NCBI RefSeq assembly: GCF_003003055.1
Contig: NZ_PVTV01000011.1
Span: 682,001 to 746,000 of the forward strand
Reading direction: 5' to 3'
DNA from: Jezberella montanilacus
GTDB lineage: Bacteria > Pseudomonadota > Gammaproteobacteria > Burkholderiales > Burkholderiaceae_B
DNA length: 64,000 bases
Made by a program: the position numbers and the translations under genes. Within the stretch, counting starts at the first letter, position 1, and the number at the start of each line of letters is the position of its first letter. Shown here in pieces: positions 30,681 to 48,357 of the stretch. The notes under the pieces were generated by a model, which saw only the letters and a list, made by a program, of their open reading frames with translations, was not told the origin of the DNA and ran no database searches.

Positions 30681-31895
30681 CTAGGCCAGGACAGCGGAGG
30701 GTTTAACGCTGAGTGGCTTTTCTCGGACTGGCAGGCAAAGGACAGCCGCTATCAGTGCCAGCGCTATGCCCATCCACCAGACCAAATCATAGCTGCCCGT
30801 TATCGCCTGGATACGACCACCTAACCACACACCTGTAAAGCTACCAAGTTGATGACCAAGAAAAATAATGCCTGATAAGGTCGCGGCAAATTGCATCCCA
30901 TAGATTTGTCCGATCAACCCTTGCGTGAGCGGAACGGTACCTAACCAGAATAACCCCATCCAGCCAGCAAAGACGTAGACCACCCAAACACTCATGGGCA
31001 TACACAATATCCACAAAATCCCCAAGGCTCTCATCGCGTAAATAATAGCCAGCAGATTTTTCTTACTGTACATCCCACCCAGCTTGCCCGCGGTAAACGA
31101 TCCGACCACGTTGAACAAGCCAATCAATCCAATCGCCACCGCGCCGGTGCCAGCATTCAGACCTGCGTCGACGACGAAGGAAGGGAGATGCAGCGTAATA
31201 AACGCAGTGTGAAAACCGCAGACAAAGTAACCCCAAAATATCAAATGGAAAGTCGGATGTCTGAAGGCCTGCTTGATTGCCGACAACATGGATTGCTGCG
31301 GTCCAGATCCGTCTGTCTGCACTGGTTTACCTCGCAAAAACCAGGACAGAGGCAGAGATACCGAAACAAAGAGAGCCAAGACCCAGTAGGCACCGGTCCA
31401 TTCGAGGTTAGTAATCAAGAACTGTCCCGTCGGCACAACTAGAAATTGTCCTAAGGATCCACCGGCACTTGCTATACCCATTGCTGTGCTTCTCGATGAA
31501 GGTGCGACCGTTCGGGCGATAACCGGAAGGATCACCGCAAACGTTGTGCCGGCCTGACCCAAGCCGACCAGAAATCCAGCGCTCAGGTACAACTGGGTGG
31601 GTGTCATCGCAAACCGGCTAGCAAGCAAACCAGCGGCGTAAAGCATGCCGCAGAGCGCGATGGTACGACCTGAACCCAACCGATCAGCCATCATGCCCGC
31701 GCCAATAGCGCCAAAACCCCAGGTCAGGTTTTGCAAGGCGAAGGCCATCGAAAAAATCTCGCGTCCCCAACCATGCTCAAGTCCCATTGGTTGAATAAAC
31801 AGACCGAAGGTGGCCCGCGTTCCCATGGCCATCAATACAACAACGGTACCAAGCAATATAGTCCTGAGGGGTAAAGCTGTTTTAGATGAAGTCAT
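30681..31895 (-). CDS. MFS transporter
   Basis: A 404-residue major facilitator with about 12 hydrophobic helices. The N-half opens with RTILLGTVVVLMAMGTRATF and has the motif-A-like loop GMMADRLGSGRTIALCGMLY after helix 2. It resembles the oxalate/formate-antiporter-like and monocarboxylate groups, GXXXG-rich in helices 4-5 (AGFLVGLGQAGTTFAVILPV). Substrate unknown, perhaps an organic acid given the neighbours. It diverges from the Bug-acyl-CoA operon and is co-directional with the small membrane protein and addB. Confidence 0.88.
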   Translation of the reverse strand: MTSSKTALPLRTILLGTVVVLMAMGTRATFGLFIQPMGLEHGWGREIFSMAFALQNLTWGFGAIGAGMMADRLGSGRTIALCGMLYAAGLLASRFAMTPTQLYLSAGFLVGLGQAGTTFAVILPVIARTVAPSSRSTAMGIASAGGSLGQFLVVPTGQFLITNLEWTGAYWVLALFVSVSLPLSWFLRGKPVQTDGSGPQQSMLSAIKQAFRHPTFHLIFWGYFVCGFHTAFITLHLPSFVVDAGLNAGTGAVAIGLIGLFNVVGSFTAGKLGGMYSKKNLLAIIYAMRALGILWILCMPMSVWVVYVFAGWMGLFWLGTVPLTQGLIGQIYGMQFAATLSGIIFLGHQLGSFTGVWLGGRIQAITGSYDLVWWMGIALALIAAVLCLPVREKPLSVKPSAVLA

Positions 31896-32092
31896 GGAGA
31901 TGATGGTCGGTGGCTATGGATAGGCCTGTCAACATAGGTCAACCAATTGATACAAGTTGAGCCACGCTGATTCAGGTTTCTTGCATCATACTGAAAACAG
32001 CAGATCCATGGCCTGAAGCCTTACTAACGGGTCAGGTTTTCGAAAAAGTATGCTTTGCCCAGTTTTCATCCCAAGAAAATAGTCAAAGTTTG

Positions 32093-32110
32093 TAACTGAT
32101 CCCTCAGTTA
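32093..32110. promoter_or_regulatory. Inverted repeat upstream of the Bug/acyl-CoA operon
   Basis: TAACTGA-TCCC-TCAGTTA, perfect 7-bp arms and a 4-nt spacer, 62 nt before the TTG start at 32172 and in the 276-nt divergent region with the MFS gene. Its spacing fits an operator. No regulator gene is adjacent. Confidence 0.45.
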
Positions 32111-32171
32111 TCACTCGTTCAGCCGTGAGTTAGACTCGAACATCAAAAAAATACGCACGCTGGGGATCAAT

Positions 32172-33158
32172 TTGCCTTTGTCAACGTCATACCTGAATCT
32201 TTGCCGAGTTTTCCTTTGGGGATTAGCGCTCTCAACGTCTGGACAGACCTTTGCGACCTATCCAGAGCGTGCAATTAAATTGATTGTGCCATTCGCTGCC
32301 GGCGGTGGCACGGATCTGGTGGCACGCGTTATTGGCGGTGCCATGACGAACGAATTGCATCAAACTGTCATCATCGAAAACAAACCAGGTGGCAGCACCA
32401 TTATCGGTACAGACGCTCTAGCTAAAAGTGCACCTGATGGCTACACCTTGGTCATGGCAACGTTTGCGCATGCAGTTAACCCAAGCCTCAAAACAAAATT
32501 ACCGTACAACCAAGACAAAGATTTCGCACCGGTATGTTTGATCGGTATATCGCCTAACGTGTTGGTGGTGTCAGCTGCAAGCCCGTATCAATCTGTTAAA
32601 GAATTATTAGAGGCTGTAAAAGCCAACCCAGGAAAATTTTCTTATGCCTCTCAGGGCAGTGGCACGTCGGCACATCTGGCGGGTGAGCTATTTGCGTCGT
32701 TAACTGGCGCAAAGTTGTTGCATGTCCCCTATAAAGGCGCGGCGCCCGCTCTGACCGACTTAATGGGGCGTCAGGTCGACATCATGTTCGCGACAGCGTC
32801 AGCGGTGGGCAACTTAATTGAAGCCGGCAAACTGCGTGCGCTGGCTGTCACGACGACCGACCGCTCGACCAGCCCTGTCTTAGCCAAGGTGCCAACCATT
32901 GCTGAGAGCGGCGTGCCAGGCTATTCAGCGGGAAGTTGGTACGGCGTGTTTGCTCCTGCTGGAACGCCGAAAGAGATCATTGCTCAACTTAACGCAGCAA
33001 TCACTAAAGGGGCGCTGTCGAGCAGCTTCAAGAATCAAGTGGAGAGCGAAGGCTTAGTCATTAAGACGGGCACACCAGAGGATTTCGCTCAATTTGAAAA
33101 GACTGAAGAGCTGCGCTGGCGAACCGTCATTAAAGACGGTCACATTACTGAGGATTGA
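32172..33158 (+). CDS. Bug/TctC-family periplasmic substrate-binding protein
   Basis: A 328-residue receptor with signal peptide (LNLCRVFLWGLALSTSGQTFA) and mature start TYPERAIKLIVPFAAGGGTD. Binding-loop motifs GGSTIIGTDALAKSAPDGYT and HVPYKGAAPALTDLMGRQVD are intact. The start is a TTG with GGGGA 5 nt upstream; no in-frame ATG lies near the N-terminus. First gene of a plus-strand operon with an enoyl-CoA hydratase, an ADP-forming acyl-CoA ligase and an SDR, so its ligand is plausibly the acid that the ligase activates (inference). Confidence 0.93.
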   Translation: MPLSTSYLNLCRVFLWGLALSTSGQTFATYPERAIKLIVPFAAGGGTDLVARVIGGAMTNELHQTVIIENKPGGSTIIGTDALAKSAPDGYTLVMATFAHAVNPSLKTKLPYNQDKDFAPVCLIGISPNVLVVSAASPYQSVKELLEAVKANPGKFSYASQGSGTSAHLAGELFASLTGAKLLHVPYKGAAPALTDLMGRQVDIMFATASAVGNLIEAGKLRALAVTTTDRSTSPVLAKVPTIAESGVPGYSAGSWYGVFAPAGTPKEIIAQLNAAITKGALSSSFKNQVESEGLVIKTGTPEDFAQFEKTEELRWRTVIKDGHITED

Positions 33159-33214
33159 CGCTTACGTCTCTGAAACCGAAATTTTAAGTGCAACGTATCA
33201 CCGAAGGAACTGAA

Positions 33215-34012
33215 ATGAGCTTCTCACTGATTGATTTGAAGGTGCAAGATGGAATCGCCACGCTTTTTCTAAATCGGCCTGAAAAACGCAACGCCATGAA
33301 TGACGATATGCGCAGCGAATTTATTGACGCGCTCGAGATGATCACCGCTAACAAAGATATCCGCGCCTTGGTACTCACCGGACACGGCAAGGGTTTTTGT
33401 GCGGGGGGTGATATTTCCGGCATGGAAAAACGTATGAAAGCCCCCACTGGGGAGATCGGCTTCAATGGCTGGCACCGGCAACAACGTGTGCACCACGCGG
33501 TCTCTCTCTTGCATACGATGCCTAAGCCAGTCATCGCTGCAGTCAATGGCTCAGCATCGGGTCTCGGCGCTGACACCGCGTTAGCGTGTGATTTTATTAT
33601 CGCCAGTGAGGCAGCAAATTTCACTTGGTCCTATATCAATCGGGGAATTATTCCCGACGGAGGTGGCATGTATTTTCTGCCCCGCCGGGTGGGCCTTGTG
33701 AAGGCAAAAGAGCTTATTTTTTCAGGCAGAAAGGTGGCCTTTGATGAGGCATGCCGGCTCGGACTAGTTGACCGAGTAACGAGCGCTGAGACACTGGTGG
33801 CAGATGCTCAAGCCTGGGCAGCTGAACTAAGTAAAGGTTCGTCCACTGCTTTGGCACTGGGCAAAACAATTCTTAATCAAACCTTTGAAACAACCTCGGC
33901 GCAGGTTTTTGCTCAAGGCAGCCAGGCGCAAGGGATCTGTTACACAAGCGCCGAGCATCGCGCAGCTGTCATGGCATTTTTAGACAAAGCGGCAGCCGCC
34001 AATCAAGCTTAA
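33215..34012 (+). CDS. Enoyl-CoA hydratase/isomerase family protein
   Basis: A 265-residue crotonase-fold enzyme. The ATG at 33215 has AAGGA 6 nt upstream and is preferred over a GTG nine codons earlier. LFLNRPEKRNAMND lies at the start, the oxyanion-hole segment GHGKGFCAGGDIS near residue 60, and ALACDFIIASEAANFTWSYI near residue 125. The first catalytic Glu of bona fide hydratases is not obvious at VNGSASGLGADTAL (where an Ala-Gly-Gly pattern with Glu is expected), so isomerase, dehalogenase or other crotonase chemistry is possible. The acyl-CoA ligase gene follows after 9 nt. Confidence 0.9.
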   Translation: MSFSLIDLKVQDGIATLFLNRPEKRNAMNDDMRSEFIDALEMITANKDIRALVLTGHGKGFCAGGDISGMEKRMKAPTGEIGFNGWHRQQRVHHAVSLLHTMPKPVIAAVNGSASGLGADTALACDFIIASEAANFTWSYINRGIIPDGGGMYFLPRRVGLVKAKELIFSGRKVAFDEACRLGLVDRVTSAETLVADAQAWAAELSKGSSTALALGKTILNQTFETTSAQVFAQGSQAQGICYTSAEHRAAVMAFLDKAAAANQA

Positions 34013-34021
34013 GGTATTGAC

Positions 34022-36118
34022 ATGACCGACGCAGTTAGCAAATTAATGACGCCAAAAAGTATTGCAATCATTGGCGCATCGACAGATCCCAAGAAAACGG
34101 CGGGGCGTCCGATCGCCTATCTGCAGAAGCATCACTTTAAGGGAAAGATTTACCCAGTCAACCCAAGAGTTCAAGAAATCGCGGGCTTAGTTTGCTACCC
34201 TGACATCGGTTCACTGCCAGAGACACCCGATGTGGCAATTATCCTGGTTGGCACCGACAAGACACTTAGCGCTGTGAGTGAATTAGCCGCGCGCGGCACA
34301 CCTGCAGCAATCGTGCTGACCAGTGGTTTTGCCGAGCACGGCCCCGAGGGCCTGAAACGTCAAGAGGCGCTCGTTGCCGCAGCAGGCAACATGCGGATTC
34401 TCGGTCCCAATACGATTGGGATGGTCAATGTAACTGACGACATCCCCCTATCCCCGAGCAGTGCACTTGAGATGAGCGAGTTCCCCAAGGGTTCAGTAAG
34501 TGTGATCTCGCAGAGCGGAGGGATTCTGGGATCTTTGCTCTCTCGTGCTGCTGCAGCCGGTATCGGTCTGGCTAAATTGGTATCAACAAGCAACGAAGCT
34601 GACTTAGGTTTAGCTGATTTCATTGATTATCTAGCCGACGATCCAAGTACCAAAGTGATTTTGCTTTACGTTGAGAGCATTAGACATCCGCAACAGTTTC
34701 GCGCTGCGGCATTAAAAGCCAGACACGCAGGAAAACCAATTGTTGTATACAAAGTAGGCAAATCAGAAGCTGGCATGAAAGCCGCCATTTCACATACTGG
34801 TGCTTTAGCCGGTGCCGACAAGATGTATGACGCACTCTTTAAAGAGGTCGGCATTATTCGCGCAGATAACTTCTCGGACTTCTTGGATATCCCTGCTGCC
34901 TTGACGACTGGTCGAGTGCTAAAGGGAAATCGTGTTGCCATTCTTACTTCTACAGGCGGTGCCGGCACACTTGTCGCTGACGGCTTGGGTGTCAGCGGCT
35001 TTGAAACACCCGCACCAGATGAAGTGACTGCAGAACGGCTTCGTGCGTTGCAACCAGGGGATCAGGCAGTATTAGATCGAAACCCAATCGATGTCACGCT
35101 GGCTGGTTTGCAGCCTGATCTGCTAAGGGGTGCGATCCGTGCTTTGCTCGATAGTCCGAGCTATGACGCTTTGATTTTGATTCTCGGTTCGTCGAGCCTA
35201 GCCATGCCAGATCTGATGGCGAGCGCTGTGCGGGATTGCATGGATGCAAGTGACAAACCCGTGATCGCCTATGCTAGCCCGCATTCACCGGTGGCAGCTG
35301 CTTTGATGACCAAGCAAGGCATCCCCACTTTTACTCAACCTGAAAGCTGCAGCGTTGCGTTAAGAAGCATGTTGCACACCAGCCAAATGTTGCAAGGCGT
35401 GCCAGTGAGGGGGCGTTTGGCTCAATCCCCTGCAACACTTGACAGCTCAGCGCTTCATGGCTCACTGGATGAACACGAGGCCAAAGTTCTCTTTTCCTTA
35501 TTCGGCATTCCCAAGGTCAAAGAAGTCGTGCTTAACGCACTGAACCCAAACCTTCAGTTAATTGAAGGGTTTGGTGACAAGATCGTTTTGAAAATAGTAT
35601 CCAAGACAATTCTGCATAAGACTGATGTGGGTGGTGTGGCCTTGAATGTCGGGATTAACGATATCCCCAACAGAATCACCGCGCTGATGTCAGACGTTAG
35701 GGCGCGCGCTGGCGTGGAAGTCGAGCAAGTCCTGGTTCAAGAAATGGTGAGCGGCGGCCTTGAATTCATGATCGGCATGCACCGTGATCCCCTGGGAACA
35801 GGGATTTTAGTAGGCATGGGTGGTGTGACTGCCGAACTATTCAACGATACGAGCATTAGATTGCTCACACCAGGTACTGTGCTGCACGAAACAGAGGCAC
35901 TCGAGATGCTGAAAGCGCTCAAAACCTGGCCTTTACTGGATGGTTATCGCGGCAAGCCAAAGTGCGATGTGGCGAGCTTGGTTCAAGCCATCGTTCAGTT
36001 TTCTGAGCTAGTGGCCTGCCTAGGTAACAATCTGATCGAATGCGAAATCAACCCTCTCTTTGTTTTTGTTGAGGGGCAGGGTGTCAAGGCTGCTGATGGC
36101 ATTGCGATCTTCAACTAA
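34022..36118 (+). CDS. ADP-forming acyl-CoA synthetase (acetate--CoA ligase family), fused subunits
   Basis: A 698-residue fusion of alpha and beta parts. It opens with a CoA-binding Rossmann domain (MTPKSIAIIGASTDPKKTAGR), continues with succinyl-CoA-ligase-like flavodoxin domains (SQSGGILGSLLSRAAAAGIG; the phosphohistidine candidate is in ISHTGALAGADKMYD near residue 258), and ends with an ATP-grasp domain (KIVLKIVSKTILHKTDVGGV; MGGVTAELFNDTS). It activates a carboxylate with ATP and CoA to acyl-CoA, ADP and phosphate, or runs backward. Its place with a Bug receptor, a crotonase and an SDR suggests degradation of an unidentified organic acid. Confidence 0.92.
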   Translation: MTDAVSKLMTPKSIAIIGASTDPKKTAGRPIAYLQKHHFKGKIYPVNPRVQEIAGLVCYPDIGSLPETPDVAIILVGTDKTLSAVSELAARGTPAAIVLTSGFAEHGPEGLKRQEALVAAAGNMRILGPNTIGMVNVTDDIPLSPSSALEMSEFPKGSVSVISQSGGILGSLLSRAAAAGIGLAKLVSTSNEADLGLADFIDYLADDPSTKVILLYVESIRHPQQFRAAALKARHAGKPIVVYKVGKSEAGMKAAISHTGALAGADKMYDALFKEVGIIRADNFSDFLDIPAALTTGRVLKGNRVAILTSTGGAGTLVADGLGVSGFETPAPDEVTAERLRALQPGDQAVLDRNPIDVTLAGLQPDLLRGAIRALLDSPSYDALILILGSSSLAMPDLMASAVRDCMDASDKPVIAYASPHSPVAAALMTKQGIPTFTQPESCSVALRSMLHTSQMLQGVPVRGRLAQSPATLDSSALHGSLDEHEAKVLFSLFGIPKVKEVVLNALNPNLQLIEGFGDKIVLKIVSKTILHKTDVGGVALNVGINDIPNRITALMSDVRARAGVEVEQVLVQEMVSGGLEFMIGMHRDPLGTGILVGMGGVTAELFNDTSIRLLTPGTVLHETEALEMLKALKTWPLLDGYRGKPKCDVASLVQAIVQFSELVACLGNNLIECEINPLFVFVEGQGVKAADGIAIFN

Positions 36119-36172
36119 TTACATCTCAAGCAGCGGGCATATCACTCAGCTGTCTCACAATAAGGAAAACGC

Positions 36173-36973
36173 ATGAGCCGTCGTCTAGAAGGAAAAATAG
36201 CTCTCGTGATGGGAGCTGGATCAGTCGGACCCGGTTGGGGTAATGGCCGGGCAATCTCAGTCAGATTTGCAGAGGAAGGCGCGAGCATTTTTGGCATCGA
36301 CAGAGAACTGGACCGGATGACTGAGACTGTCAATCGTGTCAATGAAGCAGGCGGCCAAATGGTGACAGCTGTGTGCGATGTGACGAAAAGCGCAAATATC
36401 AAAACAATCGTTGAGCAGTGTCTGGCTCAGTTCGGTCGCATTGATATTCTGGTCAACAACGTGGGGGGCTCTGCCGCAGGTGGCCCGGTTGAAATGACTG
36501 AAGAGGTCTTCGACAGTCAGATCAATCACAACCTTAAAAGTGTCTTTCTTTCTTGCAAACACGTTTTGCCTGTAATGGAAGCGCAAGGTGCCGGATCCAT
36601 CATCAACATTGCCTCAACCTCAGGCACAAGGTGGACTGGCTCTGCGCAAGTCGCTTACGCAGCAACCAAAGCGGGCGTTATCCAGTTATCTAAAGTCGTT
36701 GCTATTCAGTACGCCAAGCAGGGCATTCGGGTCAATACGATTATCCCGGGCCAGCTTCACACCCCAATGGTCGAGGTGAGATTGGCCGGCCAAAGAACCG
36801 GTGGTGACGTTGAGGCGTTATTGGCGCAACGCCAGGCACGCATTCCGCTGCCATTCATGGGTGATGGTCGCGACACCGCAAATGCTGCGTTGTACCTAGC
36901 CTCAGACGAATCCCGCTTTGTAACCGGTACGGAGATTGTTGTCGATGGCGGGATGTCGGTGAGATGTGGCTAG
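36173..36973 (+). CDS. SDR-family oxidoreductase
   Basis: A 266-residue classical SDR, FabG-like: VMGAGSVGPGWGNGRAIS is a slightly expanded cofactor loop, VNNVGGSAAG lies near residue 92, the Ser in NIASTSGTRW and Tyr/Lys in YAATKAGV, with GTEIVVDGGMSVRCG at the C-terminus. The cofactor loop carries a short insertion compared with TGxxxGxG. A good AAGGAAAA ribosome site precedes the ATG. Last gene of the acyl-CoA operon; only 5 nt separate its stop from that of garD on the other strand. It would oxidise a hydroxyacyl intermediate (inference). Confidence 0.88.
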   Translation: MSRRLEGKIALVMGAGSVGPGWGNGRAISVRFAEEGASIFGIDRELDRMTETVNRVNEAGGQMVTAVCDVTKSANIKTIVEQCLAQFGRIDILVNNVGGSAAGGPVEMTEEVFDSQINHNLKSVFLSCKHVLPVMEAQGAGSIINIASTSGTRWTGSAQVAYAATKAGVIQLSKVVAIQYAKQGIRVNTIIPGQLHTPMVEVRLAGQRTGGDVEALLAQRQARIPLPFMGDGRDTANAALYLASDESRFVTGTEIVVDGGMSVRCG

Positions 36974-36978
36974 GCAGA

Positions 36979-38568
36979 TCAAGTCACGGGCGCAGGGTTG
37001 AACAAGACCAATGAATTATGAATTTTCCAGTGTTCGGCCCACGTTTTTTTGCCACTCGCCACCGCCAGGATCATTTCGAATAATTCTTGGCCGACGTCAG
37101 CAATGCTCGCTTCGCCACTTGCGATTCTGCCGGCGTTGACGTCCATCAAATCGTGCCACCGTCTTGCGAGATCATTGCGAGTCGCGACTTTGATCACGGG
37201 ACACTGAGCTAAGCCGTAAGGTGTGCCCCGCCCTGTCGTAAAGATATGAACATTCATGCCCGCGGCTAATTGCAGCGTGCCACAAATAAAATCACTGGCC
37301 GGTGTCGCCGCAAAAACCAAACCCTTCTGGTCAGGCTTGAGTTTCTCACCGGGTGCTAAAACACTATTAATCGGGCTTGATCCGCTTTTGACAATTGAGC
37401 CCATCGCCTTTTCAACAATGTTAGATAGCCCACCCGCTTTATTACCAGGTGTCGTATTCGCGCTGCGGTCGACCTTGCTACGGCCTAAATAATTATCGTA
37501 CCAAGATAGCTCTTGAATAATGTCACGGGCGACATCTTCAGTGGCAGCCCGCATAGTCAATTGATCAACGCCATCCCGAACTTCGGTGTTTTCACTAAAC
37601 ATCACAGTGGCCCCAGCTCTCACCAAAAGATCCGTCGCAAACCCAACGGCGGGATTTGCTGTGACGCCACTAAAGGCATCGCTACCACCGCATTGAACGC
37701 CCACCACTAAATCTGAGGCAGGACAAGTTTCTCTGCGCCTCGCGTTCAAGCGTTCAAGATGGGGTTTGGCGGTTTGAACAATGTCATCGATCATCGACAT
37801 AAAACCCACGTGATGATCAGCTTGTAAGCAAACCGTTTCGGGACCCGTCGCTTCAAGACTCTCAACTCGCACAGGAAAGCTGCCGGGGGGAAACATCCGC
37901 TCAGGTTGCAGTTTCTCGCAACCCAAACTAACCACAAGCAATTCGCCTCCGAAGTTAGGATTCAAACTGATATTGCGAAGCGTGCGGATTGGGATAATCG
38001 CGTCTTTGGCCTCGATCGCGACGCCACAACCGTACGTGTGCTCGATCCCGACCACGTCATCCACATTAGGATATCTTGGCAATAACTCATTTTTAATTCG
38101 ATCGACGGCGTAAGCAACGACGCCTGATACACACTGAACGGTGGTCGTAATAGCAAGGATATTTCTGGTGCCCACCGACCCATCCTTGTTTCGATAACCC
38201 TCAAAGGTATATCCGTCCAGTGCAGGCAAAACTTGCGCAGGCGAAGTAGCGATTGGCAATCCCTCAAACCCAAGGGCTGGTGGCATCTCAATCAAGCGCT
38301 CGTGAACCCAGGAACCCTTTGGGATAGGTTTAAGCGCGCGACCAATGACGACGTTATACCTGCGTATCACTTCGCCCTGTTCAATATCCACCAACGATAC
38401 TTTGTGACCTTGAGGCACTCGGTCTTTCAGAACTAGCTCCGTATCCAATACGGTACCCGCAGCAAGCCCCTTGTCATTGACAACGATAGCGACGTTATCA
38501 AGGTCGTGCATCTTGACATAACGCGGTATCTCGTGGGGCGTCACGTGCTCGGTTGTTTTAAAGATCAT
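36979..38568 (-). CDS. garD: Galactarate dehydratase
   Basis: A 529-residue UxaA-family enzyme that dehydrates galactarate to 5-dehydro-4-deoxy-D-glucarate. An N-terminal SAF domain ([19 protein letters not shown]) is followed by the catalytic part: [57 protein letters not shown] and [15 protein letters not shown]. Cysteines in the YGCG, LGCEK and QCGGSD motifs are family iron/metal-site candidates. It resembles E. coli GarD along its whole length, including the ending NPAPVT, which argues for galactarate rather than altronate. The ATG at 38568 fits homologue length; the frame is open 47 codons upstream into dctM. Last gene of the uronate operon. Confidence 0.92.
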
Positions 38569-38603
38569 GTTCAAAAAGTCGCTTTTGTTGCTATCAACTG
38601 AGG

Positions 38604-39956
38604 TTACAGAACGGTGTGACCGGTGATGAGTGTTGGCAACCAGGTAGAAAACGAAGGCACGTAAGTGACTAAGGTAATTGCCACAAAGATCGCCAGATAA
38701 TATGGCCATGCGGACTTGGTCGCTTCACCGATGGATATTTTCCCGATCGCACAGCCGATAAATTGAACTGAACCGACTGGCGGATGCACGAGGCCGAGTG
38801 CACAATTCAAGAGTAGCATCATGCCGAACTGAACAGGTCCAACGCCCATTTGAATGGCCAACGGCAAAAACAAAGGCGTTGTAATGAGAATATGGGCAGC
38901 CATATCCAAAAAGATACCTAAAAATATCTGGATGATATTGATATACAGCAGCATCAGCCATGGTTCATGTGTCGCACTTAATAGTGCCTGTTCGATGACG
39001 TCGGGGATTTCTAGATATGCCATCTGATACCGCAACATGTTAGAGACACCGATCAATAACAAAATCACGCCCGTGGTCTTTGAAGCCTTCGTTAGCGATT
39101 TCAGCAGCTTGTCGACCGTCATGGTGCGATAGATAAGAACAGTCAGAAATAGCGCGTAAGTGACTGCAATGGCGGCAGCTTCTGTTGCCGTCGCAACCCC
39201 TTCCAATATACAAACAAGAATGATAACCACAACACCCAGCCCAGGCATGGACGCAATAAAGAACCGAAGGACATTATCCCAACCCGGGAATTTCTCGACT
39301 CTGGTCGAACCATCAGCTAACTTGGGGTAACCGTTTTTGACGGCTTGCCAATAGGCAGCCACCAGCATACAGACCATGATCCAAAAGACGGGGATTAGTC
39401 CGGCGAACATCAGATCACCAATTGAAACCCCTTTAATGAAATGTCCAGCAATCGTGCCTGTTGCGGCCTGCGCTGCAAAAGCGTAGATGATCATATTGTG
39501 CGATGTCGGCATCAGTGCGCCGGACAACGACGCATGTGTGGTCACATTGACCGCGTAGGCGGCGCTATAGCCTTCGCGTTTCATAATGGGGATCATGACC
39601 CCGCCCATCGCCGATGTATCCGCGACTGGTGACCCAGACACCCCGCCAAACAGGGTACAGGCGAAGACGTTTGCCAGGCCAAGGCCACCGCGCCAGTGGC
39701 CCACCAAGCTTCTGGCGAAGTTGACAATCTTGTCCGCGATACCGCCGTGCAACATCAGTTCGCCCGAGAAGATAAAAAATGGTATTGCCAAAAAGCTAAA
39801 TACATTCATCCCAGACGTCATCATCTGAATAGCTGTTTCGAAGGGCAAACCCTCAACGTAGAAAGTTGCCAAACAGCTCAGGCCAATCGCGAAAGCGACA
39901 GGTACGCCAAGAACGAGAAAAACCAGAAAGCTAATACACAAAACTGTCAGTGCCAT
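38604..39956 (-). CDS. dctM: TRAP transporter large permease
   Basis: The 12-helix sodium-coupled subunit of a TRAP carrier (450 residues). Characteristic pieces are [20 protein letters not shown] at the start, [19 protein letters not shown], the loop [20 protein letters not shown] near residue 105, and [20 protein letters not shown]. It overlaps dctQ by 10 nt. With the receptor and small subunit it should import hexuronates or aldarates for the linked udh-garD-kdgD enzymes (inference from context). Confidence 0.95.
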
Positions 39957-40450
39957 GATGGGACTACCTTTTGAAAGCGCAACAGGGCAACAATGTGCTC
40001 AACACTAAACAAGTTGATCAGAATGCCGGCGAGTATGACAGGCACGTATCGCCATGCCTCTGAAACACCGATAGTCGGTATCGTTGTTGCGAAAGTCGAT
40101 ACGGCCATTTCATAGCCTCCCGCCAGTAGCAGTAGGGCAAAACAAATAGTCAGGACATACACCAAGACAGAACACCAGCGCTGGATTTTTGCTGGTAGCA
40201 AAGCGACCACTGAATCTAAACCAATGTGCCCGGCATCACGAACACCGGAAGCTGCCCCAAACATCGCGACGGAGATCACCAATAAAAGAGCGACTTGTTC
40301 GACATAGGGTGGCGCATTGTTAAAGACATAGCGCATAACCACTCCATACACCACCACTAACAGCAAGCCGGTCAAGCAAGCACAAGCTACATAGAGCGAG
40401 TAACGCGAGAGCTTTGCGTTAAGCCTGTTTAGATTATTCATGTTCAGCAT
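39947..40450 (-). CDS. dctQ: TRAP transporter small permease
   Basis: A 167-residue four-helix membrane protein: LYVACACLTGLLLVVVYGVV, EQVALLLVISVAMFGAASGV with the following GHIGLDSVVALLP, then two more hydrophobic segments. This is the standard DctQ pattern. It lies 76 nt after dctP and overlaps dctM. Confidence 0.93.
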   Translation of the reverse strand: MLNMNNLNRLNAKLSRYSLYVACACLTGLLLVVVYGVVMRYVFNNAPPYVEQVALLLVISVAMFGAASGVRDAGHIGLDSVVALLPAKIQRWCSVLVYVLTICFALLLLAGGYEMAVSTFATTIPTIGVSEAWRYVPVILAGILINLFSVEHIVALLRFQKVVPSWH

Positions 40451-40526
40451 CCATCCTGGTTGCTATCAAACAAGACCAGCCTGAGGACTGATCTTGTTTT
40501 TGATCAAATGATTTGTTTGAATCGTC

Positions 40527-42360
<1,834 letters not shown>

Positions 42361-42389
42361 GATTATTACTCGCTGTGTTCCAGAACTTT

Positions 42390-43379
42390 TTATTCAGGCT
42401 CAATGCCTGCTTGTTTAATAATCCGTCCCCAACTTTCGAGTTCATCAAGCTGAAACTTGGCTAACTCAATAGGTGACGTCATAGCAACTTCCATCCCGTT
42501 TTGCTGTGCGAAATTATTCAATGACTCACTTGCCATCGCTTTGCGAACTAGCTTGCTCAATTTGTCGATAAGGTCTTGAGGGGTTCCCGCCGGCGCATAT
42601 AGCGCGTTCCAGTGATGGGCTTCATAACCAGCTAAGCCAGCTTCTGAAATTGTTGGGACGTCAGGCAATAGCGTCGAGCGAGTGGGGCTACTCACACCCA
42701 ATGCACGCAGCTTCCCCGACTTAACTTGCGGCAAACTAGTCGTAAGATCAACAATCATCATGTCAGTCTGTCCGCCAACCAGGCCCATCACAGCTGCAGG
42801 ATTTGCTTTGTAGGGCACGTAGTTAAGTGTTGTACCGCTCATGTGCTGAAACAACTCAGCCGCCACTCGCGCAGATGAGCTGCCAGAGCCATAGTTAAAC
42901 TTACCCGGTGCTTGTTTGGCCATGGCAATGAAGTCATTCACGCTTTGTACTTTCAACTCAGGATTTACCACCATCAGCATGTATCCTTGCACTAAGCGGC
43001 CCACTGGTTCAAAATCTTTGATGGGATCATAGGGCAGTTGTCTCAGCAAATGGGGATTTGCTGCCTGTGTCGTGTTGGTCGTAATGAAAAGCGTATAACC
43101 GTCTGGTGCGGCTCGAGCAGCTGCTTGCGCAGCAATACCGCCAAACGCCCCAGCACGATTATCGACAATTACGGTTTGCGCTGTTGCCTTAGTGATTTCG
43201 ACCCCCAAGGCACGAGCCAAACCGTCGGTCGTACTACCAGGCGTAGAGCCGACAATAATCGTTATGGGCCGATTCGGAAACGCGTCCGCGGCGCTGCTCG
43301 CTTGTGCCTGTGTCACGATCGATACAGCGGTGACCAACAGTAATATCAACGTCTTTACAATCAAAGTTCTCATATTCAT
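42390..43379 (-). CDS. Bug/TctC-family periplasmic substrate-binding protein
   Basis: A 329-residue receptor with signal sequence (LIVKTLILLLVTAVSIVTQA) and mature FPNRPITIIVGSTPGSTTDG. The usual PPGG turn is replaced by TPGS, and the second-lobe motif is NYVPYKANPAAVMGLVGGQT, with Ala-Asn in place of the common Gly-Ala/Gly. Three ATGs cluster here: the one at 43379 lies 5 nt from a strong GAGGAGG, while 43382 is too close and 43373 far. It is the second Bug protein in the uronate operon and differs from the other in its binding loops, so it probably has a different ligand. Confidence 0.92.
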   Translation of the reverse strand: MNMRTLIVKTLILLLVTAVSIVTQAQASSAADAFPNRPITIIVGSTPGSTTDGLARALGVEITKATAQTVIVDNRAGAFGGIAAQAAARAAPDGYTLFITTNTTQAANPHLLRQLPYDPIKDFEPVGRLVQGYMLMVVNPELKVQSVNDFIAMAKQAPGKFNYGSGSSSARVAAELFQHMSGTTLNYVPYKANPAAVMGLVGGQTDMMIVDLTTSLPQVKSGKLRALGVSSPTRSTLLPDVPTISEAGLAGYEAHHWNALYAPAGTPQDLIDKLSKLVRKAMASESLNNFAQQNGMEVAMTSPIELAKFQLDELESWGRIIKQAGIEPE

Positions 43380-43417
43380 CATCGCCTCCTCGTTATCGTT
43401 TTGAGTCTCTGAGTCGT

Positions 43418-44371
43418 TCATGTCGTCAAGCTAGCTTCGGGCCTCAAACCACTCAAAGCCTGCTCCAAACTAGCTAAGACCATCTCACCCATGCTAGTGC
43501 GTGTCTCAATAGTTGCGCTGGCTCGATGAGCCTGCAACGACACATTATCCATCTTGAGCAAAGCGGATGGTACGTTTGGTTCATCCACAAAGACGTCCAA
43601 ACCAGCACCGGCAATCCTCTTTTCAACCAAGGCGTTCACGAGGTCTGCTTCATTAATTAGCTTGCCTCTAGCGATGTTGACAATAAATCCGTTGCAACCC
43701 AAAGCGTTCAATATTTCCGCATTGACGATCCCTTCGGCCTGATCTGCGGCAGCCGCCAACACCAGCGCATCGCTGCTAAGCGCCAAATTTTTTAACGTAC
43801 TCATGTACTCGTAAGGCACGTCTGGCATTGACCGCAAGTCGTTATAACGAATAACGCAGCCAAAGGCAGCGGCTCTGGTTGCGACCGCTCTGCCTACGCG
43901 CCCCATGCCAACGATACCCAGGTTCATGCCACTGAAGCGACGGGCTAAGGGGATGGCACTTGGTTGTGGGTTGGCAGGCCATTTGCCCTCTCGCACGAAC
44001 CTATCACCAGAGAACATACCTCGGCAAGTACCAATTAGCAGACCGATTGCCAAATCGGCCACATCCTCTGTCAACGCGCCTAGTGTGGCGGTTACGGCAA
44101 TTCCGCGTGCCCGCGCATAATTCAAATCAACCGCGTCTGTGCCGACTCCATTAATAGCAACCACTTGTAAAGCGGGAAGCTGATCCATTAGTGCATTCGA
44201 TATTCCGGTATGTCCACCCGTTATGACGGCGCGCACACCGGAACCATGCCTGGCCAGATAGGCCTCTTTGTCAACCTGTTTAAAGAGCTGATGAACTCGG
44301 TATTTTGCTTCGAGCTGATCATTGATTGAGGCAATTAGGATTGGACTGAGCTGGAGGATTTCAGCCTTCAT
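43418..44371 (-). CDS. D-isomer-specific 2-hydroxyacid dehydrogenase
   Basis: A 317-residue D-2-hydroxyacid dehydrogenase, GhrB/hydroxypyruvate reductase-like. VAINGVGTDAVDLNYARARG lies near residue 70, the cofactor loop GIVGMGRVGRAVATRA near residue 150, the catalytic Arg in NIARGKLINEADLV and Glu in DVFVDEPNVP. The catalytic His of the family appears as QAHRASATIETR. ATG 44371 has AGGAG 7 nt upstream. It overlaps the SDR gene. A reductase for glyoxylate, hydroxypyruvate or a keto-aldarate is plausible; its role beside the oxidative uronate route is not explained by the other genes. Confidence 0.9.
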   Translation of the reverse strand: MKAEILQLSPILIASINDQLEAKYRVHQLFKQVDKEAYLARHGSGVRAVITGGHTGISNALMDQLPALQVVAINGVGTDAVDLNYARARGIAVTATLGALTEDVADLAIGLLIGTCRGMFSGDRFVREGKWPANPQPSAIPLARRFSGMNLGIVGMGRVGRAVATRAAAFGCVIRYNDLRSMPDVPYEYMSTLKNLALSSDALVLAAAADQAEGIVNAEILNALGCNGFIVNIARGKLINEADLVNALVEKRIAGAGLDVFVDEPNVPSALLKMDNVSLQAHRASATIETRTSMGEMVLASLEQALSGLRPEASLTT

Positions 44372-44381
44372 TGAAGATCTC

Positions 44382-45146
44382 CTAGCCACGGCCGACGAAT
44401 GGCATGTTGCTGGCCATTACGGTCATACTTAATACATTCGCACTCAGCGGTAACCCCGCAATGTGACAAACTGCATCTGCAATGTGCTTAACGTCGATCA
44501 TGGGTTCGATTGCAATCGCTCCGTTTGCTTGCAAAACCCCTTTACTCATTCGGACAGACAGTTCTGTGAGCGCGTTGCCAATATCGATCTGACTAGCAAC
44601 AATATTGAACTGACGTCCATCCAAAGCGATACTTTTAGTTAGTCCAAGGACAGCGTGCTTGCTAGCCGTGTAAGGACCACTCAATGGCCTGGGCGTGTAC
44701 GCCGAGACCGAGCCATTGTTGATAATGCGACCTCCTTGAGGCGTTTGTCGTCTCATTAAGCCAAAGGCCGCTCGCGCGCACAAGTACACGCCGGTAATAT
44801 TTGTATCGACGACATTTTTCCATTTTTCTAGCGGCAGCTCGTCGATTGTTAATGCGGGCGCATTGACACCTGCGTTGTTGAACAACACATCTAGGCGGCC
44901 GAACTTATTTTCCACTGTCGCAAAGAGCTGTTCAACACTATTTACATCTCGTACGTCCGAAGGGATTGCGATCGCTTGTTGTCCATGACCGAGTGCTTCT
45001 TCGACAATCGCCTGTAACGGCTCAGGGCGGCGACCCGTCAGTACGACGGTGTATCCCAACTGCAGGAACGCAAGAGCCGTTGCGCGCCCTACACCACTGC
45101 CAGCGCCTGTTACTAAAACGACTTTATTGTCGGTAAGCTTAGTCAT
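44382..45146 (-). CDS. SDR-family oxidoreductase in the uronate operon
   Basis: A 254-residue classical SDR: TGAGSGVGRATALAF (cofactor loop), LTGRRPEPLQ (Arg pair, NADP-leaning), FNNAGVNAPA, Ser in NNGSVSAYTPRP, and YTASKHAVLGLTKSIALDGR with catalytic Tyr/Lys. The ending TVMASNMPFVGRG is shared with sugar-acid/alcohol SDRs. It overlaps the following D-2-hydroxyacid dehydrogenase gene and follows a Bug gene by 30 nt. It might handle a keto-sugar acid or an alternative uronate; not assigned. Confidence 0.87.
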   Translation of the reverse strand: MTKLTDNKVVLVTGAGSGVGRATALAFLQLGYTVVLTGRRPEPLQAIVEEALGHGQQAIAIPSDVRDVNSVEQLFATVENKFGRLDVLFNNAGVNAPALTIDELPLEKWKNVVDTNITGVYLCARAAFGLMRRQTPQGGRIINNGSVSAYTPRPLSGPYTASKHAVLGLTKSIALDGRQFNIVASQIDIGNALTELSVRMSKGVLQANGAIAIEPMIDVKHIADAVCHIAGLPLSANVLSMTVMASNMPFVGRG

Positions 45147-45176
45147 TTTGTCTTCTTTTTTTATGTTGTGAAATGG

Positions 45177-46136
45177 TCAATTGGCAGAAATCTTTCTATC
45201 TCGAATAATTTTTTCGTAACGAACACGATCTGTTTCGATCAAAGTTGAAAATTGCATTGATCCTAAGCCTGTCGGCACGGCGCCAAGATCGACGAATCTT
45301 GCTTTTACGTCGTCGAGGCTCATCAGTGCTTGAACATCATTGGCTACTTTCTGTACAACCTCTGATGGTGTACCTGCTGGAGCTAGCAAGCCAAGCCAGC
45401 TGATGGAATTGAATCCTGGTAAATAAGCCTCACTCATCGTTGGGACATCAGGCAAGGCCTGCACGCGTTGATCGCTTGTCACAGCCAAGGCTCTTAGTTT
45501 GCCTGCCTTGATGTGACTACTGGCCTCAAACACGGTCATAAACGACAATTGAACGTGGCCAGCCAAGAGATCCGCTACCGCTGGCCCGCCTCCCCGATAA
45601 GGCACGTGCAGAATACTGATACCGGTAGCTGCGGCAAACATCTCAGCGGCAAGATGCGGTGCGCTGCCTGAGCCTGAACTGCTGTAACTCATGCTCGAGT
45701 CTTTCTTTGCTAAAGCAACAAACTCTTTGACTGTTTGAGCCTTAACTGAAGGGTTGATCATCATCACCAGCGGTAGCTCCGCCACCATCGCGACAGGTGC
45801 AAACGCTTTATCCGCGTCATATGGTAAGTTCTGGTAGAGCGAGGGATTGATAGACTGTGTACCGATATTGCCCATCAATAGGGTGTAACCGTCAGGGGTG
45901 GACTTGGCAACTGTGTCGGCACCAATCTGACCCGCAGCTCCCCCTTTGTTTTCCACGATCACTTGTTGCCCCCATCTTTGGGTCAACTGATTTGCGATAA
46001 TTCGCGCCCCGATGTCAGTCCCACCCCCTGGTGGAAACGGCACGATCAAGGTCACGGATCGCGTTGGATAATCGGCTTGGGCCCACCCAAGAGTGAACCA
46101 AATCCCCAACACGAATGCGCAAATGAACCGACTCAT
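45177..46136 (-). CDS. Bug/TctC-family periplasmic substrate-binding protein
   Basis: A 319-residue receptor with a short signal ([18 protein letters not shown]) and the canonical [45 protein letters not shown] and [20 protein letters not shown]. Its ATG overlaps the kdgD stop region by 4 nt (ATGA type), so it is made with the catabolic enzyme. It may bind an aldarate or a related dicarboxylate (inference). Confidence 0.93.
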
Positions 46137-47044
46137 TGCGGCCCAAGCTGTTCGATCAGTTCTGACAACGCCCGCATCTCGTCGGGTTTTAAATCAGTCA
46201 ACGGAGCCCTCACTGGACCCGCATCATGCCCGACTAACTTAGCACCGGCTTTGACAATACTGACTGCATAACCCGGCATTTTGTTTCGGATAGCAAGGTA
46301 GGGCATAAAAAAATCGCGCAACAACTGATGCTGGGTCGCCATGTCATCGTTTGCCACGGCATGATAGAAGGTCATAGCCGTTTTCGGTATGAAGTTAAAT
46401 ACTGCTGACGAGTAAACAGGCGTCCCCAGAGCCTTATAAGCGGCTGCGTAGACCTCTGCCGTAGGCAAACCACCAAGATATGAGAAGCGATCTCCCATAC
46501 GCATATAGATGGACGACATGGTTTCGATGTCACCTACTCCATCTTTAAAGCCAATCAGATTCGGACAGCGATCTGCCAAGATAGCCAAGGACTCTGGTGT
46601 CAGCTTGCAAACGTTGCGGTTGTAGACAATGACACCAAACTGCACGCTTTTACACACGGCTTCAACGTGAGCAATCAAACCTTCTTGCCCTGCTTCGGTC
46701 AGATAATGAGGTAGCAGCAAGATGCCGTGCGCCCCTAATCGCTCTGCTTCTTGGGCACACTGGATCGCAAAACGCGTTGAACCACCCACACCCGCAATGA
46801 TCGGCACCTTACCCTGACAAGTTTGCACGGCAGTCTTGATGATCTCTGGGTATTCTTCACCTGTTAAGGAGAAGAACTCACCAGTGCCCCCGGCGGCAAA
46901 CAATGCCGTTGCACCATACGGGGCCAACCACTCCAGGCGGGATGCATACCCTTTCGCATTGAAATGACCATCAACGTCGAAATCAGTCACGGGAAATGAC
47001 AGCAAACCGCTTGAAACAATAGATTTGAGGTGTTGTGGATTCAT
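46133..47044 (-). CDS. kdgD: 5-dehydro-4-deoxyglucarate dehydratase
   Basis: A 303-residue DapA-family aldolase-like enzyme that dehydrates and decarboxylates 5-dehydro-4-deoxy-D-glucarate to 2,5-dioxopentanoate. [12 protein letters not shown] opens it, [10 protein letters not shown] lies near residue 52, the active-site tyrosine is Y141 ([13 protein letters not shown]) and the Schiff-base lysine K167 ([11 protein letters not shown]). The GGTGEFFSL and YNRN variants separate KdgD from DapA and NanA. First gene of the ten-gene operon, with the two LacI-type operators immediately upstream. The Shine-Dalgarno is weak. Confidence 0.95.
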
Positions 47045-47070
47045 CGTATTTTTTTAAAAGTGAGTTGAAA

Positions 47071-47084
47071 TGGTACCGGTACCA
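47071..47084. promoter_or_regulatory. LacI-family operator, proximal copy
   Basis: TGGTACCGGTACCA is a perfect 14-bp palindrome with a central CG, the form typical of LacI-family sites, 26 bp before the kdgD start. Flanking TTT/AAA bases extend the symmetry. Confidence 0.75.
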
Positions 47085-47090
47085 AACATT

Positions 47091-47120
47091 ATGGTAGCGG
47101 TACCAAATATCAATTGTCAA
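47091..47120 (-). promoter_or_regulatory. Candidate promoter of the kdgD operon
   Basis: On the minus strand a perfect TTGACA (47115-47120) is followed after 18 bp by TACCAT (47091-47096). The -10 would lie within the distal operator and the start region within the proximal one, so repressor binding would block polymerase directly. The weak -10 lowers confidence. Confidence 0.5.
47092..47105. promoter_or_regulatory. LacI-family operator, distal copy
   Basis: TGGTAGCGGTACCA matches the proximal site at 13 of 14 positions. The two centres are 21 bp apart, two helical turns, so both repressor dimers would lie on the same DNA face. Confidence 0.72.
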
Positions 47121-47167
47121 TTTCAAAATAATAAGGAATTACCCTTATTTAGCTGATTAACCGCTGC

Positions 47168-48196
47168 TTAGGTACTATCACGCTCGTGAATAGAGAACCC
47201 TACGTCAACGGTGGGCATCTGAACGACCCTACCCTCTGCTCTTGCAATCAAATATTCAGCAGCTAGCGCACCAATTTTGCCTGAATTGATCTGGACGGTC
47301 GATAACGCTGGGATCATGTTTTCAATAATAGGCACTCCGCCAAAACCCATTACAGCAAGCCCGTCGGGGATACGGATATTTCTCGCTCGCGCTTCGGTCA
47401 GCACACCCAACGCCAACAAGTCAGAACTGCAAAAAACAGCATCTACCCTGGTTGTGTTTTCGAGTATTTCGGCTAATGCTTGGCGCCCTCTCGTCAACGT
47501 TCTCTCTGATCCAACGTTAATCACCTGAACGGGCGGTAAGCCTTGCTGCGCAGCACGCTCGACGAAAGCAGACATTCTTCGATCGGCGCGTTCGTCCGAC
47601 GCGCGCACGGACGCGAAGCGTTGATAACCTTTGCTGATAAAGTAATCCGCTACAGCAAGACCGATCTTATGGTGCGAGAAGCCGATCAGCATATCGATTG
47701 GCGTGGGCGTCAAATCCCAGGTTTCAACCACGGGGATACCCGACGCGAGCAAGCGCTTACGTGCATTGCTGGGCGGCATAATGCCTGTCAGAAAAATACC
47801 ATCTGGTCTGCGACCAATAACAGCGCCGAGAAGCGCTTCTTCTCGACTAGCAAGATATTGAGATTGCCCCAGCATCAACTGATACCCAGCGTCGAAGAGC
47901 GCATTGTTAAGACTCTCGATGGTCTCGGTAAAAACCGAAAATACCGTGCTGGGTATGACGGCGGCGATCAGTTTACTTTTCGAAGAGGACAAACTACCGG
48001 CCATTAAATTAGGTACATAGCCTGTTCTGGCGACGGCGTCGTGTACTCGTCGCAAAAGCTCAGCAGACACGGTTTCAGGGTGATTGATGGCTCTTGAAAC
48101 CGTAATCGGTGCTACGCCAGCAATTTTGGCGACGTCACGCACTGTGACCGCACCAGAGTTTCGGCGTGACCGCTTGATTGGATCGTTCGGTTGCAT
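47168..48196 (-). CDS. LacI-family transcriptional regulator
   Basis: A 342-residue repressor-type regulator. The N-terminal helix-turn-helix spans ~18-42 (VTVRDVAKIAGVAPITVSRA), the hinge helix is near residues 58-70 (TGYVPNLMAGSLSSSKS), and the rest is a periplasmic-binding-like effector domain resembling the GntR/IdnR branch (AAVIPSTVFSVFTETIESL). It lies 123 nt upstream of kdgD in the same direction; the gap holds two matching operators. The inducer is probably a uronate or an aldarate intermediate (inference). It starts 66 nt after the tRNA-Arg 3' end. Confidence 0.93.
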   Translation of the reverse strand: MQPNDPIKRSRRNSGAVTVRDVAKIAGVAPITVSRAINHPETVSAELLRRVHDAVARTGYVPNLMAGSLSSSKSKLIAAVIPSTVFSVFTETIESLNNALFDAGYQLMLGQSQYLASREEALLGAVIGRRPDGIFLTGIMPPSNARKRLLASGIPVVETWDLTPTPIDMLIGFSHHKIGLAVADYFISKGYQRFASVRASDERADRRMSAFVERAAQQGLPPVQVINVGSERTLTRGRQALAEILENTTRVDAVFCSSDLLALGVLTEARARNIRIPDGLAVMGFGGVPIIENMIPALSTVQINSGKIGALAAEYLIARAEGRVVQMPTVDVGFSIHERDST

Positions 48197-48210
48197 GTAA
48201 TTTTTTACTT

Positions 48211-48230
48211 AGATGATAACGGCATCATCT
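48211..48230. promoter_or_regulatory. Inverted repeat upstream of the lacI-family gene
   Basis: AGATGAT-AACGGC-ATCATCT, perfect 7-bp arms, 15 bp before the regulator start. It does not resemble the TGGTACCGGTACCA sites. It may be an autoregulatory site or a hairpin in the leader; a second hairpin (CCAGCA...TGCTGG, 48237-48253) lies between it and the tRNA and may help end the tRNA transcript. Confidence 0.35.
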
Positions 48231-48261
48231 TATAGACCAGCATCGCCTGCTGGGCAAGTTG

Positions 48262-48337
48262 TGGTACCGCCGACACGAATCGAACGTGCGACTCCCTTCT
48301 TAGGAGGAAGGTACTCTATCCACTGAGTTACGGCGGC
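48262..48337 (-). tRNA. tRNA-Arg (anticodon CCU)
   Basis: A 76-nt cloverleaf with encoded CCA. The acceptor stem GCCGCCG pairs with CGGCGGT (first pair G-U), the D arm is ACTC/GAGT, the anticodon arm CCTTC-CTCCTAA-GAAGG gives CCU at 34-36, and the T arm reads GTTCGATTC. It decodes AGG. It lies 20 nt after the xerD stop in the same direction and just before the lacI-family gene. Confidence 0.94.
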
Positions 48338-48357
48338 AAACCAGGCGATAGTTTAAT

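Follow-up and report, generated by a model that had tools for sequence, protein, structure and literature searches.

Within a 64,000-nucleotide stretch of the Jezberella montanilacus genome (the window), we find what is very probably a regulatory region that puts a galacturonate/galactarate catabolic operon under repression by a LacI-family protein, whose gene lies just upstream. Judged from sequence, this is a bacterial on/off switch of an ordinary kind, functional-looking and conserved in relatives, although the 21-bp spacing of its two operators is not conserved; what relatives retain is instead the way in which the distal operator fits the promoter. The control region comprises the following elements.

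47071–47084, minus strand: proximal operator O2, TGGTACCGGTACCA, a perfect palindrome (sequence pattern)
47092–47105, minus strand: distal operator O1, TGGTAGCGGTACCA, reading TGGTACCGCTACCA on the minus strand (sequence pattern)
47091–47120, minus strand: predicted sigma-70 promoter, TTGACA at 47120–47115, an 18-bp spacer and TACCAT at 47096–47091 (promoter scan)
47168–48196, minus strand: gene of a LacI-family regulator of 342 aa, GntR/IdnR-like (profile matches)
48214–48227, minus strand: probable weak operator TGATAACGGCATCA, equal to TGATGCCGTTATCA on the minus strand, with 3 mismatches (sequence and orthologue pattern)

Both strong operators have the form of LacI-family sites, being even palindromes with a central CG (O1 carries one mismatched pair), and the 20-nt units surrounding them are 90% identical. 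They start 21 bp apart, a whole number of helical turns (2.0), and from the promoter pattern the start of O2 is predicted to fall at about +1 of the transcript. The original prediction had placed two 14-mers at this distance between a LacI-family gene and kdgD, which we confirmed. It had also proposed a genome search for the 14-mer: in the entire genome (G000; 3.16 Mb, 19 contigs), O1 and O2 are the only exact TGGTANCGNTACCA sites. Six further sites carry one mismatch, giving a total of 8 versus 9 for the reversed control; five of these six lie inside open frames of at least 100 aa, and the sixth is intergenic, its flanking genes by eye unrelated to sugar acids. On these counts, a wider regulon in this genome was rejected. 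Within the window, all remaining matches to TGGTANCGGTACCA carry 3 mismatches; the claim that the window holds no other copy stands for strong sites, but it overlooked the probable weak site before lacI. From the observed site density, chance alone should place a pair of sites within 40 bp of each other 0.0005 to 0.0008 times per genome. With fewer than 0.001 such pairs expected, and with operators that are conserved in relatives, the idea that O1 and O2 are chance palindromes without function can be given almost no weight.

Conservation was assessed at the best 80 of at least 549 relatives, drawn from at least 598 matching stretches of the genome collection, and operators were counted with up to 2 mismatches within 500 bp downstream or 200 bp upstream of the orthologous lacI. 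Many of these loci are close kin and not independent (the regulators of L070 and L105 are identical). A downstream operator is present at 78 of these 80 Burkholderiales loci (74 with at most one mismatch), against 8 of 80 for the reversed control, and an upstream operator at 65 of 80, against 1 of 80. Two loci lack a downstream site: in L051 the contig stops about 220 bases past the gene, and in L065 the roughly 1.3 kb downstream of the gene hold no site with at most one mismatch. This comparison of orthologous intergenic regions, also proposed at the outset, shows the palindromes to be conserved and supports the assignment of LacI-family operators to the promoter of the galacturonate/galactarate operon. 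To these loci we added a same-genus locus (L010) and 28 family loci (L103–L130); 28 of the 29 were counted, one with fewer than 100 downstream bases being left out, and 11 of the 28 have a downstream site (control, 1). Among the 25 more distant regulators (L106–L130), the exact motif is rare and the stretches examined hold mostly TGTTAACGTTAACA-like sites or none; the motif therefore seems to belong to this orthologous group only.

The palindromes might also be bound by a regulator other than the neighbouring LacI-family protein. That protein falls below the cut-off of each of the 17 NCBIfam families that it matched, which leaves some room for such a reading, yet the motif follows or precedes the orthologous gene at the high frequencies given above (3' in 78 and 5' in 65 of the best 80 loci) and a related TGTTAACGTTAACA is present at more distant paralogues. 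In addition, a central CG is typical of LacI-family operators (PMC4052901). We consider another binding protein highly improbable, and repression by the neighbouring LacI-family regulator is the reading followed here.

The promoter scan alone is weak evidence, because 3 promoter-like sites were found in the scanned 1.5 kb versus 1.2 (sd 1.2) in shuffles. The predicted promoter matches the consensus in 10 of 12 letters, with TACCAT matching 4 of 6 letters of the −10 consensus. As a pattern, the right half of O1 plus the next base (TACCAT) coincides with the predicted −10 box. Operators overlapping a TTGACA-based promoter had been claimed from the start; this is accurate for O1, which overlaps the −10 box and the spacer, but the TTGACA itself lies just upstream of O1.

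We examined this geometry at 84 loci, 82 of which have a site, counting a hexamer as TTGACA-like when 5 or 6 letters match. At 37 of the 82 loci such a hexamer begins 14 bp ahead of the first operator (17-bp spacer), and at a further 8 it begins 13 bp ahead (16-bp spacer); against these 45, 58 TTGACA-like hexamers are spread over 92 other positions. The operator right half plus one base reads TACCAT at 41 of the 45 loci, TAACAT at 2 and TATCAT at 2. With its 18-bp spacer, the window promoter is one base longer than the commonest 17-bp geometry of its relatives. At the 37 of 82 loci without a TTGACA-like hexamer at the expected place, O1 loss explains 12 cases. Twenty-eight of the best 80 loci have one site, with O1 lost in 12, O2 lost in 9 (O1 and the −35 hexamer kept) and the other 7 unassigned. 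In 14 of these 28, a TTGACA-like hexamer starts 39 to 46 bp before the site, and in 12 of those 14 a T(A/T)NNAT hexamer (for example TAACAT, TAGCAT or TAATAT) lies 17 bp after the −35, where O1 is expected. The other two (L052 and L067), together with seven more one-site loci, have a −35 adjoining the site itself. Because the promoter persists where O1 has decayed, the reading of TACCAT as a −10 box is supported.

The spacing between the operators is far more variable. Fifty of the best 80 loci carry two sites, at 22 to 32 bp and never at 21 bp (22 bp, 2 loci; 25, 1; 26, 9; 27, 11; 28, 5; 29, 4; 30, 2; 31, 15; 32, 1). Eighteen of these 50 pairs are near whole turns (22, 31 and 32 bp), 26 are near a half turn (25–28 bp) and 6 are at 29–30 bp; orthologues thus show no general in-phase spacing, and same-face cooperativity is no general rule. 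Spacing follows kinship: among closer relatives, 16 of 24 pairs are near whole turns, mostly Hydrogenophaga at 31 bp, and among more distant relatives 23 of 26 are near a half turn. Three added close relatives with two sites have spacings of 29, 30 and 31 bp. In a tree, the window regulator groups with two Polynucleobacter sequences (support 99/90), on a long branch that makes its place less sure; one of these two relatives has a spacing of 26 bp (L024) and the other a single site.

The exact 21 bp in the window may nevertheless reflect dimers that sit on the same face two turns apart, touch and bind cooperatively. Consistent with this are the O1–O2 distance of 2.0 turns, the upstream sites exactly 21 bp apart at 6 of the 25 more distant family regulators, and the 31-bp spacing held within Hydrogenophaga, whose records account for 12 of the 15 orthologues at that distance. 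In a survey of tandem LacI-family sites, spacings peak at 13, 22 and 32 bp, the last two being read as cooperative (PMC4052901). On the other side, the 26 orthologous pairs at 25–28 bp include the nearest two-site relative, Polynucleobacter L024, and 28 of the best 80 loci keep one site at the threshold used. We regard this explanation as possible but lean somewhat against it; the cooperative side-by-side dimers of the original prediction could exist at 21 bp, but a fixed two-turn spacing fails as a rule across the 50 loci.

Alternatively, each site might repress alone, with the second merely raising the chance that the promoter is covered, an explanation that we place just short of an even chance. 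Spacing varies freely (22–32 bp), O1 stays at a nearly constant distance from the −35 hexamer, and either site can be lost, as the 12 loci without O1 and the 9 without O2 indicate. Yet 50 of the best 80 relatives keep two sites, where free redundancy should allow more decay, and in the window O2 is a perfect palindrome, with O1 a single letter short of one.

Tandem LacI-family sites at 21–22 and 32 bp are already in print, among them those of ScrR of Burkholderiales and RafR of Enterobacteriales (PMC4052901). Like these systems, the window has even palindromes centred on CG at a distance of two turns, and a local, probably autoregulated regulator of a sugar operon; it differs in that its orthologous group has no fixed spacing and in that the distal site also supplies the predicted −10 box. 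Across the loci compared, 21 bp is a recurrent, known arrangement that is not fixed in this orthologous group. Upstream of their genes, the more distant paralogues L117, L118, L119, L122, L123 and L126 carry TGGTAACGTTACCA-like sites in tandem at exactly 21 bp, with three such sites in a row at L117.

The putative repressor matches PF00356 (LacI helix-turn-helix) and PF13377 (sugar-binding, periplasmic-binding-protein-like core) above cut-off, which places it in the LacI family. LacI-type tetramers, which form DNA loops, are marked by a C-terminal tetramerisation helix beyond the core domain. No such helix was found in the window regulator: the PF13377 match reaches the model end (167 of 167) at residue 342, the last residue of the protein. 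Since no residues follow the core-domain match, the regulator is unlikely to loop DNA as a tetramer, in line with the preference against looping expressed in the original prediction. The best family matches are GntR of Pseudomonas and GntR and IdnR of Escherichia coli (gluconate and idonate regulators), and the best solved-structure match is a chain labelled GntR (3h5o). The operator type is similar (TGTTANCGNTAACA in paralogues here). The window regulator nevertheless differs from these proteins in scoring below their curated cut-offs (400, 500 and 433 bits), the best NCBIfam match, NF052440 (Pseudomonas GntR equivalog), reaching 272.7 bits versus 400 and thus falling outside that family; its operator differs in the letter at position 3, and it adjoins aldarate genes, not gluconate genes. 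The interval that separates lacI from the promoter holds a hairpin, AATAAGG/CCTTATT and then ATTTT (47125–47149, minus strand, by eye), which may be a weak lacI terminator and is absent from the scanner's list.

Besides O1 and O2, the lacI promoter probably carries a third, weak operator. Read along the minus strand, TGATAACGGCATCA starts 31 bp ahead of the lacI start and immediately follows a TTGCCC-17-TATAAG pattern recognised by eye; in orthologues, the 66 upstream sites start 22 to 99 bp ahead of the gene. We call it probable only, because a matrix built from the orthologue upstream sites ranks it sixth in the window, behind O1, O2 and three intragenic sites. In relatives, the region 5' of lacI also serves a divergent garD. 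The window has garD at the end of the operon instead, so that a strong site before lacI would be less needed.

Ten genes follow the control region, all on the minus strand and with gaps under about 100 bp; together they are predicted to break down sugar acids of the pectin type.

46133–47044, minus strand: kdgD, 5-dehydro-4-deoxyglucarate dehydratase (TIGR03249 above cut-off)
45177–46136, minus strand: tripartite tricarboxylate (Bug/TctC) binding protein (PF03401)
44382–45146, minus strand: SDR oxidoreductase (PF00106)
43418–44389, minus strand: D-2-hydroxyacid dehydrogenase family (PF02826/PF00389)
42390–43421, minus strand: second Bug/TctC binding protein (PF03401)
41554–42360, minus strand: udh, uronate dehydrogenase (three of the four best solved-structure matches so named: 6mfh, 3rft, 3rfx)
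40527–41513, minus strand: TRAP binding protein DctP (family and structure matches)
39947–40450, minus strand: TRAP small permease DctQ (PF04290)
38604–39956, minus strand: TRAP large permease DctM (TIGR00786 above cut-off)
36979–38709, minus strand: garD, galactarate dehydratase (TIGR03248 above cut-off), its true start probably near 38520 because the family match begins at residue 64 of the open frame

These ten genes are predicted to form one transcript. The single control point once proposed for them agrees with the one strong point found in the genome, but misses the probable weak third site. In the predicted pathway, galacturonate is oxidised to galactarate, which is dehydrated by GarD and then dehydrated and decarboxylated by KdgD. 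We found no glucarate dehydratase (TIGR03247) in this genome; galactarate dehydratase is therefore the one of the relatives' two dehydratases present here, and glucarate use in this genome was ruled out by the absent match. As in the oxidative (Udh) hexuronate pathway (PMC6353982), udh stands together with GarD and KdgD; the window operon differs in showing no family match to a lactonase or lactone isomerase and in adding a TRAP transporter and two Bug proteins to the gene row. The operon region 42390–46136 encodes two Bug-type binding proteins, and the operon, with its TRAP transporter, shows no tripartite tricarboxylate permease gene.

To narrow down the likely effector, we counted the near neighbours of the orthologous regulators (loci up to 13 kb long), splitting the best 80 at an arbitrary line of 61.5% regulator identity into 50 closer and 30 more distant loci. 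Among the closer 50, garD is present in 49 and stands divergent within 500 bp before lacI in 47; kdgD is present in 7 and udh in 10, the latter being all udh occurrences among the 80. On the regulator's strand, gudD occurs at 42 of the 50 closer and 27 of the 30 more distant loci. In two loci viewed in detail (L040 and L074), gudD scores above its cut-off and is joined by tartronate semialdehyde reductase and by a GarL/HpaI-like aldolase that stays below cut-off. Overall, garD, gudD or kdgD (at least 50% identity) is found at 77 of the 80 loci, and the remaining three are loci of 3.6 to 7.3 kb. Both aldarate dehydratases yield one product, 5-dehydro-4-deoxyglucarate. Since aldarate genes are the common thread of the loci, an aldarate or 5-dehydro-4-deoxyglucarate is the likeliest effector, and galacturonate is less likely because 70 of the 80 loci show no udh. 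Compared with a uronate, either of these would be the more probable signal for the regulator. The label "uronate operon" still describes a galacturonate/galactarate operon, but on the regulator's side it narrows to aldarates.

The operon lies in a probable insertion (31896–48261) beside tRNA-Arg(CCT) at 48262–48337. At all 11 same-genus loci examined (29 other genomes matched), the next gene after the xerD-like one is a homologue of the window gene at 30681–31895, which is MFS-like by eye; the tRNA lies between the two at 2 of these 11 loci. Among 32 genomes of the genus, the regulator occurs at more than 60% identity in this one and G029 only, and kdgD in the same two. Duplicated island ends around the tRNA were rejected, the longest exact match between the tRNA region (48240–48345) and 31850–32400 being 9 nt. 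The same inserted stretch carries a plus-strand cluster (32172–36973; by eye a Bug protein, an enoyl-CoA hydratase-like protein, an acyl-CoA synthetase-like protein and an SDR) that points towards the operon's end.

We propose the following switch. Without inducer, one repressor dimer would occupy O1, covering the promoter spacer and the −10 box, and a second would occupy O2 at about +1 to +14, both blocking RNA polymerase. Galacturonate would enter via the TRAP transporter and be oxidised to galactarate, which would then be dehydrated; binding of an aldarate or 5-dehydro-4-deoxyglucarate to the repressor would free the promoter. Through the weaker operator before its gene, the repressor probably also holds down its own production.

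A literature search that covered part of the matching papers found no publication on this regulator, and we do not claim that it is absent from print; one published study reportedly treats hexuronate regulons of proteobacteria. We judge the chances evenly balanced for a joint reading in which a little-described or undescribed Burkholderiales repressor group shares sensing of the aldarate pathway, with half an operator serving as the −10 box. In this joint reading, the intermediate (5-dehydro-4-deoxyglucarate or aldarates) would be sensed whichever downstream route is used, garL/garR or kdgD, and the window lineage would have kept one strong control point because garD ends the operon instead of standing divergent before lacI. 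As a single-genome finding, the arrangement is ordinary. For Burkholderiales, its orthologous group provides a regulon of aldarate and galacturonate use that can be tested, and with the natural spacing series (21 to 32 bp) on one promoter skeleton one could measure how far helical phase matters when paired dimers repress.
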